From the NCBI GenBank assembly GCA_018263585.1, contig JAANWZ010000093.1, forward strand, positions 1 to 34,188: DNA of 34,188 nt. The letters run 5' to 3'. This DNA comes from Calditrichota bacterium (GTDB lineage Bacteria > Electryoneota > Electryoneia > Electryoneales > Electryoneaceae). Positions 815-34,188 of the stretch are shown one piece after another. The translations under genes and the position numbers were made by a program. Within the stretch, counting starts at the first letter, position 1, and every line of letters starts with the position of its first letter. The notes beneath the pieces were generated by a model. That model saw nothing but the letters and a program-made list of their open reading frames with translations. It was not told where the DNA came from and did not search any database.

Positions 815-969
815 TGTCATCCTGAACCGCGCCCGCGTCAGTTTGCGGGCGCGAGTGAAGAACCTGCGAGCGGGAACAACACCCGATTCGATTGGCACTG
901 TCAGCGGGTGGTGTATGCGGTAGATCCTTCACCCCCGCACAGACAGACGTGCGGGGGTTCAGGATGACA
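815..969. repeat. Dispersed inverted-repeat element, copy A (CATCC subtype)
   Basis: Begins with TGTCATCCTGAAC and ends with GTTCAGGATGACA, giving 13-bp terminal inverted repeats over 155 bp. Inside lie a GTGAAGAACCTGC segment, AGATCCTTC, and a terminal hairpin ACCCCCGCAC / GTGCGGGGGT. It contains no ORF of its own. It resembles MITE- or REP-like non-autonomous elements; other copies are at 5851, 8354, 12884, 31978, 33773, 33824 and 34062. Confidence 0.8.
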
Positions 970-5769: not shown

Positions 5770-6147
5770 CGTTCCGTCCGCGAACCGCGCCGCCGACGGG
5801 TTCCGTTCAGCGCGCTAATACCGGTCATATCCGGCATGCTCGTTCCACTGTGTCATTCTGACGCCCGTAGGGCGGAAGAAGGTCGGAGTATGCTCGGGGT
5901 ACTGTCTGGATTGACCGGTGCCGAAACTGGACCTTCTTCACGCCGCTGACGCGGCGTTCAGAATGACGAAAACTCCAACTGAATCTGAACCCAGCGCTAA
6001 TGTACGCGTTCAGCGGGCCGGTGTGTGAAGCGACGGGCGTGCGACGGGGACCGGCGGCTGATCCCTCCCCGGCGTGTCGTTGTCTCTCGGTCGCCAACGC
6101 CTGCGAGTCTGAAGATGGTCTGCGTCTCTCCCGGAGCCGCCGGGCGC
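5770..6147. other. Intergenic region between divergent wzx-like and arsR genes
   Basis: No gene is supported here. The stretch holds repeat element copy B (5851-5967) and, towards arsR, unremarkable GC-rich sequence. The 200-aa minus ORF over this stretch has no recognisable domain and uses the repeat as coding sequence. Confidence 0.6.
5851..5967. repeat. Dispersed inverted-repeat element, copy B (CATTC subtype)
   Basis: Starts TGTCATTCTGA and ends TCAGAATGAC; the inner arms are GAAGAAGGTC and GACCTTCTTC, and there is an internal ACGCCGC / GCGGCGT hairpin near the right end. Compared with copy A both members of each arm differ, yet the arms remain complementary to each other. Length 117 bp, no ORF. 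Confidence 0.78.
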
Positions 6148-8181: not shown

Positions 8182-8719
8182 CAGAGTGGTGGAGACGGGT
8201 GTTTGCGACCACTGATGGCACAGAAAACGCGGATTCGTTTATGCCCCGTGCCTGCTTGCAGGGCGGGCTCAGTCTGCTCCATGTAGGGGACGCTTGCTTG
8301 CACCCGCTTATCGCTTTGGCTCAGCCGAAGGCAGTATCGGATGTGGCAAGCGCGTCATTCTGACCGAAGCCCGAAGTCTGTTTGTCGGCGAAGGGAAGAA
8401 GGTCCGGATTCGATAAGGGTGGGGAAACCCAGCAAACTCAAGAAATAGTCCTCAGATAAGCTGGACCTTCTTCACCCGCCTCCACGCAAACAGACGCGTG
8501 AAGCCGGGTTCAGAATGACGCCTCCGCCTTCCGGATACGATAGAGTCCCGGTCCGTGCACGTGGCTGATCGAACGGGACAACCGGATGACAGGAAGCATA
8601 CCCGCTTTCAGGTGATGCGGTCAAGTGTGCGGTGCTGAATACGCACTTTCGAACAAGAGAACGTGCGAAAAGCAATAGAGCATGATTCATTGTGAAATCC
8701 GACGTAACCGGGGGAGACA
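8182..8719. other. Intergenic region with repeats after the ars operon
   Basis: No convincing gene. Contains the half-site GGGGACGCTTGCTTGCA (8286-8302), repeat element copy C (8354-8519), and less GC-rich sequence from about 8620 to 8700 that probably carries the promoter of the small gene at 8720. ORFs 8178-8363 and 8472-8720 have no family features and overlap repeats. Confidence 0.6.
8354..8519. repeat. Dispersed inverted-repeat element, copy C (CATTC subtype)
   Basis: Outer arms GTCATTCTGA and TCAGAATGAC; inner arms GAAGAAGGTCC and GGACCTTCTTC, 11 bp and perfectly complementary. The right part carries AACAGACGCGTGAAGCC in place of the ACGTGCGGG of the other subtype. Length 166 bp, no ORF. 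Confidence 0.8.
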
Positions 8720-11859: not shown

Positions 11860-12103
11860 GAGGATGTTCCCTCCACGAAGTAGCCGTGCGGGCAGACGGC
11901 GTTCGGCGCCGTTCGCCGTGTTCACGTTGGAACAGGATGATCCGACCCGCGGTCACGGTGCAAAGATTATGACCGCCGCAGGTGTGTGACCCGTTCGCAC
12001 TGACGAAAGAAACAGGATACGGGCGGCGTGCGTCCCGTGCAACGGATCGCGGGGCGTGGGGAGAGAATGCGCCGTGCTTGTCCAGGATGGCGCAGTTGCA
12101 GGC

Positions 12104-12125
12104 CCGCGGTTGCTCGCAACCGCGG
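12104..12125. repeat. Palindrome CCGCGGTTGC-TC-GCAACCGCGG
   Basis: Perfect 10-bp stems with a 2-base loop, flanked by AGG and CTGATC. The same element with a AA loop and inverted flanks occurs at 31947-31968, showing a dispersed family. Confidence 0.75.
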
Positions 12126-12140
12126 CTGATCGACCGTTGG

Positions 12141-12883: not shown

Positions 12884-13054
12884 TGTCATCCTGAACAAGC
12901 GCGGCGTTCGTCTCATGCCTCCGCACCGACGACATACGTATACGAGGATCTACGCGGTACACTACCCGGGGTTATTCGACACGCACCCTGCGCGGTACTT
13001 GCCGGTAGATCCTTCACCCCCGCACACACTGACGTGCGGGGGTTCAGGATGACA
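12884..13054. repeat. Dispersed inverted-repeat element, copy D (CATCC subtype)
   Basis: TGTCATCCTGAAC ... GTTCAGGATGACA over 171 bp, with AGATCCTTCACCCCCGCAC and the terminal CCCCCGCAC / GTGCGGGGG hairpin. It fills most of the gap between the end of the SLC13 gene and the macrodomain gene. Confidence 0.82.
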
Positions 13055-13101: not shown

Positions 13102-14694
13102 CTACTGCGGCAACAGCACCGGCATTCCCATCATCGGCCAGATGAACGCGATGAACACTGCGAGCACGGCCATCAGCAGCACGCTCGCCGGCGCCCCGAC
13201 CTTGAAGAACTCCCCGGATTTGAACTGACCGCTCTCGTAGGCGATCGCGTTCGGCGCGGCGCCGACGAGGAACAGGAACGGCATCCCTGCCACGGCGAGG
13301 CTCGCCCAGAACACGACTTCCGGCGCCACGTGCACGTATTGCGCGATCACGAGCGCGACCGGCAGGCTGATCGCGATCGCGGCCACGTTCATGATCAGGT
13401 TTGTCATCAGCAGCACGAACGCCGCGATCCCGAGCACGAAGATGAACCAGTTCGCGTTTTCGAGCAGCATGATGAACTGGACCGCGAGCCAGCGCGCGGC
13501 GCCGGTCTGCCACAGGCAGAAGCCGATGCTCATCGCCCCGCCGAACAGGAGGATGATGTTCCACGGGATCTCTTCGAGGTCCTTCAGGTTCAGGATCCTG
13601 AACAGGAAGAAGAGGATGGTCGTGGTCAGGATGATCGCGCTCTTGTTGAACGGGGCGAGCGCGGGCACGAACGAGCGCAGGCTGAGGAACACGATCACTC
13701 CGGCGACGAGCACGACCGCGGTCCATTCGCCGCGTTTCATCGGGCCGAGCCGTGAATACAGCGCGTGCGCCCGTTCGCGCAGCCCGGGGATGTGCGCCTT
13801 TTCCGGCCGGTACACGAGCAGCATGTAGCCCCAGAGCAGCACGGTCATCGCCACCCCGACCGGAAACATGTAGTACGAGTACTCGAAGAACGTGATCTCG
13901 CGTCCGACGATGTCCTTGAAGAAGGCGATTCCGACCGCGCCACGGGCCGCGCCGAGCAGGGTGATGATGCTGCCCGCGCCCGCGACGAACGCCATCCCGA
14001 TAAACAATCCCTTGCCGAACCGGGTCGGCGTCGTCGAGTGCGAGTACATCGTGTAGATTGCGCGCAGCAGCGGGTACATCGCGGCCGCGACCGCGGTGTG
14101 CGCCATCACCAGCGTCATCGCGGACGTCATCAGGAACACGCCGAGCAGAATCAGCGCGGTCCGCTCGCCGACGACGACCAGCATCCGGTACGCGAGCCGC
14201 TGGGTCAGGCCCGTCTTCGAGAACACCTTCCCGATGATCAGCGACCCGAAGATGAACCACACCGACGGGTCGAAGAAGTCGGTGAACGCAACGCGCGGGT
14301 CGCGGATGAGGAACATCGCCTGGAACACCGCGATCGCGATCGAGGTGACCCCGATCGGGACGACTTCGAACACCCACCACACCGCCGCGAGCAGGAACAG
14401 CCCGATCGCGGCCTTTCCTTCCCGCGAGAGCGCGAACACATCGCCGACCGGATCGGTCGCGTCCGGCCAGGACGGGGAGAGGAACACGCCGGTGAACAGC
14501 GCGAGCCCGAGCGCGATCAGCGCGATGCGCCTGAGATCGAGCGGCGCCCGCCGTTCCGCGAGCGTGATTTCGCCCGGTTTCTCCGGCAGAGATTCGGGGT
14601 GAGCGCGGGAGTCCGCGCCCGACACCGGCTTCTTCTCTTTCCTGCTCGTGTCGGAGGGCTTTTTGTGAACAAAATCACGAATACCGGCAAACAT
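13102..14694 (-). CDS. SLC13/DASS family anion transporter
   Basis: A 530-aa integral membrane protein of the divalent anion:sodium symporter family (ArsB/CitT-like fold), which moves dicarboxylates, citrate, sulfate or similar anions. About 40-70 residues of charged cytoplasmic N-terminus precede the first helix. Family segments include VWWVFEVVPIGVTSIAIAVF, DPSVWFIFGSLIIG, MAHTAVAAAMYPLL (half-site 1), IPWNIILLFGGAMSIG, and TNLIMNVAAIAISLPVAL (half-site 2). GGAGCG supports the ATG at 14694, 13 bp after the CBS gene; the track start at 14775 falls inside the CBS gene. It is the last gene of the operon with phosphotransferase, kinase, receiver and CBS protein and is presumably their effector. 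The transported anion cannot be deduced. Confidence 0.92.
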   Translation of the reverse strand: MFAGIRDFVHKKPSDTSRKEKKPVSGADSRAHPESLPEKPGEITLAERRAPLDLRRIALIALGLALFTGVFLSPSWPDATDPVGDVFALSREGKAAIGLFLLAAVWWVFEVVPIGVTSIAIAVFQAMFLIRDPRVAFTDFFDPSVWFIFGSLIIGKVFSKTGLTQRLAYRMLVVVGERTALILLGVFLMTSAMTLVMAHTAVAAAMYPLLRAIYTMYSHSTTPTRFGKGLFIGMAFVAGAGSIITLLGAARGAVGIAFFKDIVGREITFFEYSYYMFPVGVAMTVLLWGYMLLVYRPEKAHIPGLRERAHALYSRLGPMKRGEWTAVVLVAGVIVFLSLRSFVPALAPFNKSAIILTTTILFFLFRILNLKDLEEIPWNIILLFGGAMSIGFCLWQTGAARWLAVQFIMLLENANWFIFVLGIAAFVLLMTNLIMNVAAIAISLPVALVIAQYVHVAPEVVFWASLAVAGMPFLFLVGAAPNAIAYESGQFKSGEFFKVGAPASVLLMAVLAVFIAFIWPMMGMPVLLPQ

Positions 14695-31927: not shown

Positions 31928-31946
31928 TCACATCCCGACTGGTCAG

Positions 31947-31968
31947 CCGCGGTTGCAAGCAACCGCGG
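31947..31968. repeat. Palindrome CCGCGGTTGC-AA-GCAACCGCGG
   Basis: Same 10-bp stems as the element at 12104-12125. The flanks (GTCAG before, GCCTG after) are the reverse complement of those at 12104, so the two are inverted copies of one family. It abuts the half-copy of the CATCC element at 31978. Confidence 0.75.
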
Positions 31969-31977
31969 GCCTGTGCG

Positions 31978-32013
31978 TGTCATCCTGAACAAGCGCGGCG
32001 TTTGTCTGCCGCG
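31978..32013. repeat. Left half-copy E of the dispersed element
   Basis: TGTCATCCTGAACAAGCGCG and then GGCGTTTGTCTGCCGCG match the left side of copy D, but there is no right arm. It ends about 10 bp before the Shine-Dalgarno of the epimerase gene. Confidence 0.7.
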
Positions 32014-33772: not shown

Positions 33773-33823
33773 TGTCATCCTGAACCGCGCCGCCGTTTGT
33801 ATTGGTTGAGGCAGGGCCAACTG
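33773..33823. repeat. Left half-copy F of the dispersed element
   Basis: TGTCATCCTGAACCGCGCC then GCCGTTTGTATTGG; it has no right arm and is followed at once by copy G. Its start matches copy A more than copy G. Confidence 0.65.
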
Positions 33824-33989
33824 TGTCATCCTGAACAAGCCGGCCGAGCTGTTTTCAGTTTCAGGCCGGCGCCGTGAAGGATCTGCGAGCGGAAACCGCA
33901 CCCGGTTTGTTTGACGCAACCAGCGGATTGTGCTTCGAGTAGATCCTTCACCCCCCGCACACACTGACGTGCGGGGGTTCAGGATGACA
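33824..33989. repeat. Dispersed inverted-repeat element, copy G (CATCC subtype)
   Basis: Full 166-bp copy with TGTCATCCTGAAC / GTTCAGGATGACA ends, GAAGGATCT / AGATCCTTC inner arms and the CCCCGCAC / GTGCGGGG terminal hairpin. An internal GCCGGCC / GGCCGGC pair flanks TTTTCAGTTTCA. Its first 127 bp are identical to copy I. Confidence 0.85.
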
Positions 33990-34061
33990 CGGAGGGGGCA
34001 CAAGCAGACGTGCGGGGCGTTCAGGATGACACTCATGCGCCCGACGGCTGGCCGCCCAATC

Positions 34062-34188
34062 TGTCATCCTGAACAAGCCGGCCGAGCTGTTTTCAGTTTC
34101 AGGCCGGCGCCGTGAAGGATCTGCGAGCGGAAACCGCACCCGGTTTGTTTGACGCAACCAGCGGATTGTGCTTCGAGTAGATCCTTCA
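34062..34188. repeat. Dispersed inverted-repeat element, copy I (truncated by window end)
   Basis: Base-for-base identical to 33824-33950 over all 127 visible bases and offset by 238 bp. The window ends at AGATCCTTCA, so the right arm lies outside. An orphan right arm (GTTCAGGATGACA, ending 34031) sits between the two copies. Confidence 0.85.

Follow-up and report, generated by a model that had tools for sequence, protein, structure and literature searches.

YGTC-tagged hairpin repeats of a Calditrichota genome are probably spread by a small GIY-YIG nuclease

The window, i.e. the whole stretch of 34,188 nucleotides analysed here, is interspersed with inverted repeats, which raises the question of what these elements are and what moves them. 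The sequence-only reading had described a dispersed inverted-repeat family with two subtypes, and both points hold. The 34 kb window has TCATYCTGA at 15 sites, where 0.34 would be expected and 100 shuffles give 2 at most. A YGTC tag accompanies 14 of the 15 sites, all 14 being part of elements; the unrelated site at 13626 (minus strand) lies within a long ORF. The tagged sites make up five complete two-arm elements, three half-units and a further element truncated at the end of the window.

Elements of the window and hairpin anatomy

The complete element at 815-969, of subtype TCATCCTGA, consists of a left hairpin (815-866) and a right hairpin (919-969) with TGTC tags pointing outward, as derived from sequence and folding. 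The same subtype, with AGATCCTTC-type inner arms in all three copies, is present at 12884-13054 (motif and folding) and 33824-33989 (folding), and subtype TCATTCTGA, with GAAGAAGGTCC/GGACCTTCTTC-type inner arms, at 5851-5968 and 8353-8520 (motif and folding in both). The half-units are a left-half fragment at 31978-32009 (plus strand), an extra left half at 33773-33804 (plus strand) and an extra right half at 33990-34031 (minus strand), which the sequence places joined onto the element at 33824-33989. The copy cut by the window end occupies 34062-34188, and the segment 34054-34188 is 98% identical to 33816-33950.

Each single arm is its own hairpin, TGTC-ATYCT-GA-stem-loop-GA-AGRAT-CT, and an element is made of two such hairpins facing each other with the tags outward. 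Within one half the outer ATCCT (or TTCT) pairs with the inner AGGAT (or AGAA), and folding of the halves places a GA/GA internal loop above this foot and a GC-rich stem further in. In eight of nine halves at most 4 of 200 shuffles fold as well; the left half of the element at 8353 (8353-8409) folds poorly alone, no better than chance, and for the left half at 815 the fold shows the inner stem alone. The whole of 815-969 can also be folded as one four-arm cross with three hairpins (z -6.9).

The sequence-only reading took the two outer arms of an element as one pair and the two inner arms as another. It was right about a mobile-element-like family whose complementarity is maintained, and the covariation is real, but the partners were wrong, since each outer arm pairs with the inner arm of its own hairpin. 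In a set of 149 distinct cross-phylum hairpins the Y:R position shows C:G in 119 cases, T:A in 27 and a mismatch in 3. Of the two pairs that follow, one is present in 144/149 and the other in 139/149, compared with about 105 in shuffles; the 3' arm of this sample was searched as GAAGRATC, hence the constancy of its GA/GA loop is partly built in. Within the window's own genome the Y:R and two further pairs barely vary, so the significant covariation comes from the other genomes. The covariation proposed earlier between the two subtypes is present, with its partners within one arm.

Copies in the host genome and across phyla

The host assembly (2.85 Mb in 165 contigs, 92% complete) contains 588 exact copies of GTTCAGGATGACA and 625 of TGTCATYCTGARC, with no match of a reversed control pattern, i.e. 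about 600 copies of the repeat. TG or CG precedes 144 of 157 TCATYCTGA sites of this genome, so that the unpaired CGTC/TGTC tag is present. In a 347 kb sample of it 63 clusters were found, the commonest being the simple inverted pair +- (n=20); an isolated -+ pair never occurs among them, and other clusters form arrays, e.g. +++---, in which the half-units beyond the central pair are spaced by about 40-50 bp. A 13-mer of the repeat is present in 33 of 39 genomes of the window's phylum, in which copy number ranges from 0 to 625 and the window's genome (G000) is the richest for the TCATYCTGA class.

A scan of 84,980 species with AGATCCTTCAC-N8-36-GTTCAGGATGACA (24 fixed bases) returned at least 100 matches. 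By their record titles the matches listed include Bacteroidales, Clostridia, Acidobacteria, Gammaproteobacteria, Planctomycetota and Omnitrophota, as well as Parcubacteria, Fibrobacter, Spirochaetales, Neomarinimicrobiota and Chloroflexota (Pelolinea), cultured strains among them; in total the motif is present in at least ten phyla. In three loci of gut Bacteroidales (L047, L063, L073) the 5' half-unit alone is repeated in tandem about every 20 bp and a single complete hairpin follows, which suggests slippage or repeated half-insertion at the tag. A Bacteroidales contig (L080, L128) harbors tandem paralogous permease-like genes (MKSYLRFLG...) with these hairpins between them.

Such hairpins could be functional RNA or DNA structures, for example terminators or mRNA stabilisers, kept by host selection with mobility playing a minor part, a view compatible with their strong folding, their covariation and their location in the window, apparently between genes. 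We regard this as improbable given the variation from 0 to 625 copies between genomes of one phylum, the two-hairpin units and tandem half-arrays, the nuclease linkage described below, and the Rfam search, in which a tmRNA is the sole match and none is obtained for the repeats. The tmRNA gene lies at 359-725, with tag peptide ADDTGYALAA, and adjoins the first element.

The terminal inverted repeats TGTCATYCTGA also recall ordinary MITEs moved by a cut-and-paste DDE transposase. Target-site duplications, proposed earlier as a check, show no excess at any length from 2 to 9 bp in 58 elements, of which 23 are own-genome and 35 cross-phylum, and none was found; in the cross-phylum loci, the genes with repeats on either side include no recognised transposase. 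This reading was rejected and has very little probability left.

A Y1 (RAYT/IS200-like) transposase acting in trans, as in classical REPINs, was the mobiliser suggested by the sequence-only reading. The architecture is indeed REPIN-like, the genome contains three Y1 genes, and one TGTC half-element lies near the Y1 gene of locus L033. Each of these genes is, however, flanked by unrelated repeats of its own, and YGTC-hairpin brackets were found around 0 of 32 Y1 genes of the phylum, the three of this genome included. Moreover, the outer end does not carry the GTAG tag, a GTAG string being present at the inner side of some right hairpins only and in no left hairpin, and the 2013 survey of similar repeats likewise found no such enzyme (PMC3733652). 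The suggestion was therefore dropped, and we consider it very unlikely.

It should be noted that a second palindromic repeat family, TCAGCCGCGGTTGCAAGCAACCGCGGGCCTG, occurs in the window at 12099-12129 and 31943-31973. It flanks a 186-aa Y1/RAYT-like gene on both sides (L033, 1400-2120), with which it apparently forms a REP-RAYT pair separate from the TGTC elements. TGTC halves sometimes directly adjoin copies of this family, as does the left-half fragment at 31978-32009, located directly 3' of one. Two further Y1 genes (L031, L032) have their own unrelated palindromes, GTGCGGCTTCAGCCGCAC and TTCATCCCCTTCGGGGATGAT. Directly after the element at 815-969, three tandem 55-bp repeats (978-1142) with CAGCCGCGG...GGCGGGCAT/CGCGGGCAT resemble the second family.

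Small GIY-YIG genes bracketed by hairpins

A small GIY-YIG nuclease first came up in cross-phylum loci, those of an acidobacterium and of Fibrobacter, as a gene with the repeat on either side. The protein, encoded outside the window, is a small stand-alone nuclease of about 95-110 aa that matches PF01541 above cut-off, with catalytic Y, R, H, E and N intact and invariant or nearly so in A1. Its structure model (pLDDT 89) is predicted to be close to UPF0213 (structures 1zg2 and 1ywl) and SLX1, a nuclease that cuts branched DNA, as the nearest folds. It thus resembles known small GIY-YIG nucleases in catalytic domain, residues and predicted fold, and for those relatives no link with hairpin repeats is described in the literature searched. 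PADLOC gave weak matches alone (E about 0.01).

For a systematic count, genes were collected by a PF01541 search of the phylum and of 50 element-bearing genomes, and the DNA around the matches was taken. The 50 cross-phylum genomes were chosen for carrying the repeat, the phylum set without regard to it. Inverted YGTCAT hairpins bracket 29 of the 91 small GIY-YIG genes with full flanks that entered the strict count, and 20 of 50 in the phylum set alone; controls from the window's phylum gave 0/20 for uvrC, 0/32 for Y1, 4/2368 for sliding pseudo-genes and 0/97 for reversed sequence. The strict detector misses variant tags (CATC, CGTCGT), and with a looser one 46 of 104 genes are bracketed, against 1.7% of random positions, although 1 of 20 uvrC genes passes too. 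Over both detectors the random-position rate is 0.2-1.7%. Hairpins and nuclease are hence associated.

The arrangement is that of a unit. Of 104 nearest hairpins 81 face inward (p 9e-9), so that the inverted pair encloses the gene, as would be predicted for an autonomous unit with a gene-less derivative, and hairpin-nuclease-hairpin units measure 348-599 bp. Bracket classes extend beyond TCATYCTGA to ATTCC, ATCCC, ATTGC and others, and the left and right hairpins of one gene match at 8.8 of 10 nt, compared with 5.4 between genes (p 0.0005); in two of the 29 strict brackets (L182, L193) the two hairpins are unlike each other, and chance may account for these. About half of the small GIY-YIG genes show no two-sided bracket, several of them probably belonging to other subfamilies.

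Hairpin class and nuclease also track each other. On a nuclease tree of 59 genes, built from a short alignment and with weak supports, hairpin class changes 15 times against 25.8 when shuffled (0 of 200 as low); rhizobial ATCCTCGGG hairpins were scored as ATYCT despite their CCA tail, which biases against this result. A Mantel test of hairpin class against nuclease gives p 0.0002, and a hairpin class is more abundant in genomes in which it flanks the nuclease (p 0.002, 0.006 and 0.017). Total copy number against presence or absence of the nuclease is borderline (p 0.05) with the window's genome and reaches p 0.008 without it.

In cultured bacteria the gene is found inside the inverted pair in Shinella, Neorhizobium, Rhizobium and Aeromonas, and beside dimers or arrays in Azospirillum, Planktothrix, Photobacterium and N. 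gonorrhoeae. A. lipoferum 4B shows dimer-nuclease-dimer between sufB and sufC, and three relatives, with flanks 95-96% identical, have the same locus empty of this unit. The precise insertion junction was not obtained, the Azospirillum sufB-sufC spacer being too diverged and 50 kb yielding one strictly detected dimer.

The 34 kb window contains no nuclease gene, and family and profile searches of its genome to E 10 returned no small GIY-YIG gene, UvrC being the only match. Two genomes of the same family (G016 and G017) have nucleases adjoining TCATYCTGA hairpins. Since the window's genome is without a detectable gene its copies look orphaned, and since the assembly is 92% complete and in 165 contigs the gene may be absent from the assembly or lost; the copies have either lost their enzyme or are still served by one whose gene the assembly lacks.

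These results can also be read in terms of a homing parasite, in which the GIY-YIG enzyme would not spread the hairpins but cleave at them, repair from the homologous flanks then copying its gene into the cut sites, while the repeats spread by other means. GIY-YIG enzymes include homing endonucleases, the nuclease has a weak match to TIGR01453, A. lipoferum and N. gonorrhoeae have the gene amid whole dimers or arrays, and none was found in the repeat-richest genome. The commonest layout nevertheless encloses the gene in a single inverted pair, the arrangement of an autonomous element; hairpin class and the clade of the nuclease go together, and no further kind of mobility gene turned up in association with the repeats. 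We judge the homing reading unlikely.

Proposed mobility and relation to known repeats

Our preferred reading is that the repeats are REPIN-like non-autonomous elements whose dedicated mobility enzyme is the small GIY-YIG endonuclease, with a hairpin-gene-hairpin autonomous form; we give it a probability of roughly 0.6. Judged from sequence relationships, the nuclease probably spreads the hairpin repeats. The REPIN-like unit would have a short core between two YGTC-tagged hairpins that point their tags outward, and the autonomous form, of about 350-600 bp, would hold the nuclease gene between its hairpins, the loss of this gene giving rise to short elements such as those of the window. In DNA that is single-stranded or extruded during replication the hairpins would fold, the nuclease would recognise the tag and hairpin foot and cut there, and repair or ligation would insert a copy elsewhere, leaving no target-site duplication. 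What counts against this is the lack of a small GIY-YIG gene in searches of the repeat-richest genome, the unbracketed half of these genes and the borderline presence/absence test of copy number.

As in REPIN/RAYT systems, two inverted hairpins would be the spreading unit and a small single-domain enzyme gene is flanked by its own hairpins. The tag is, in contrast, YGTC at the outer end rather than GTAG, and the enzyme a GIY-YIG nuclease rather than an HUH tyrosine transposase.

The closest described repeats are the CGTC-tagged REPs, among them Neisseria dRS3 and Rickettsia RPE, which according to the survey that named them "apparently lack a dedicated transposase", their mobilisation being left to future work (Di Nocera 2013, PMC3733652). 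By the same text, they have in common with the window class the CGTC/TGTC tag, an A-T stem start, mainly head-head dimers, intergenic location, occurrence in several phyla and no RAYT (PMC3733652). Head-head dimers predominate with the C/T-variable tag of the window's genome as well (+- in 20 of 63 clusters). The REPs are described there with a fully paired 8-9 bp stem, A-T at the first two positions and a loop of 4-5, whereas the window class has a 5-bp foot, the GA/GA internal loop, a variable inner stem and tandem half-units; the A-T start is kept in the ATCCT/AGGAT subtype and the TTCT subtype loses the first pairs. The tail is CT in the window class and mostly CCA in those REPs (PMC3733652), a CCA tail being present in other members of the nuclease-linked set, and a GIY-YIG partner is not reported for them in that text. 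Going by the survey's text, then, tag and dimer form place the window class with the CGTC/TGTC-tagged REPs, but stem and tail do not.

In the open-access literature searched we found no report joining GIY-YIG genes with REPs; one Moraxella paper has separate entries for RAYT genes and for GIY-YIG genes, and a REP survey of 2025 makes no mention of a nuclease. The earlier description of such repeats as poorly explained was fair, and the GIY-YIG nuclease is a new lead. We put at slightly above even odds the wider reading of a pan-bacterial mobile class with a GIY-YIG mobility enzyme, comprising autonomous units and gene-less two-hairpin derivatives and including CGTC-REPs, Neisseria dRS3 and the TCATYCTGA repeats.

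CGTC-type REPs are widespread, and a specific candidate enzyme, itself small and widespread, makes the question of their mobilisation directly testable. The candidate suggests a third way to spread miniature elements, beside DDE and HUH enzymes, and, if true, would provide a function for many genes annotated merely as "GIY-YIG nuclease family protein".
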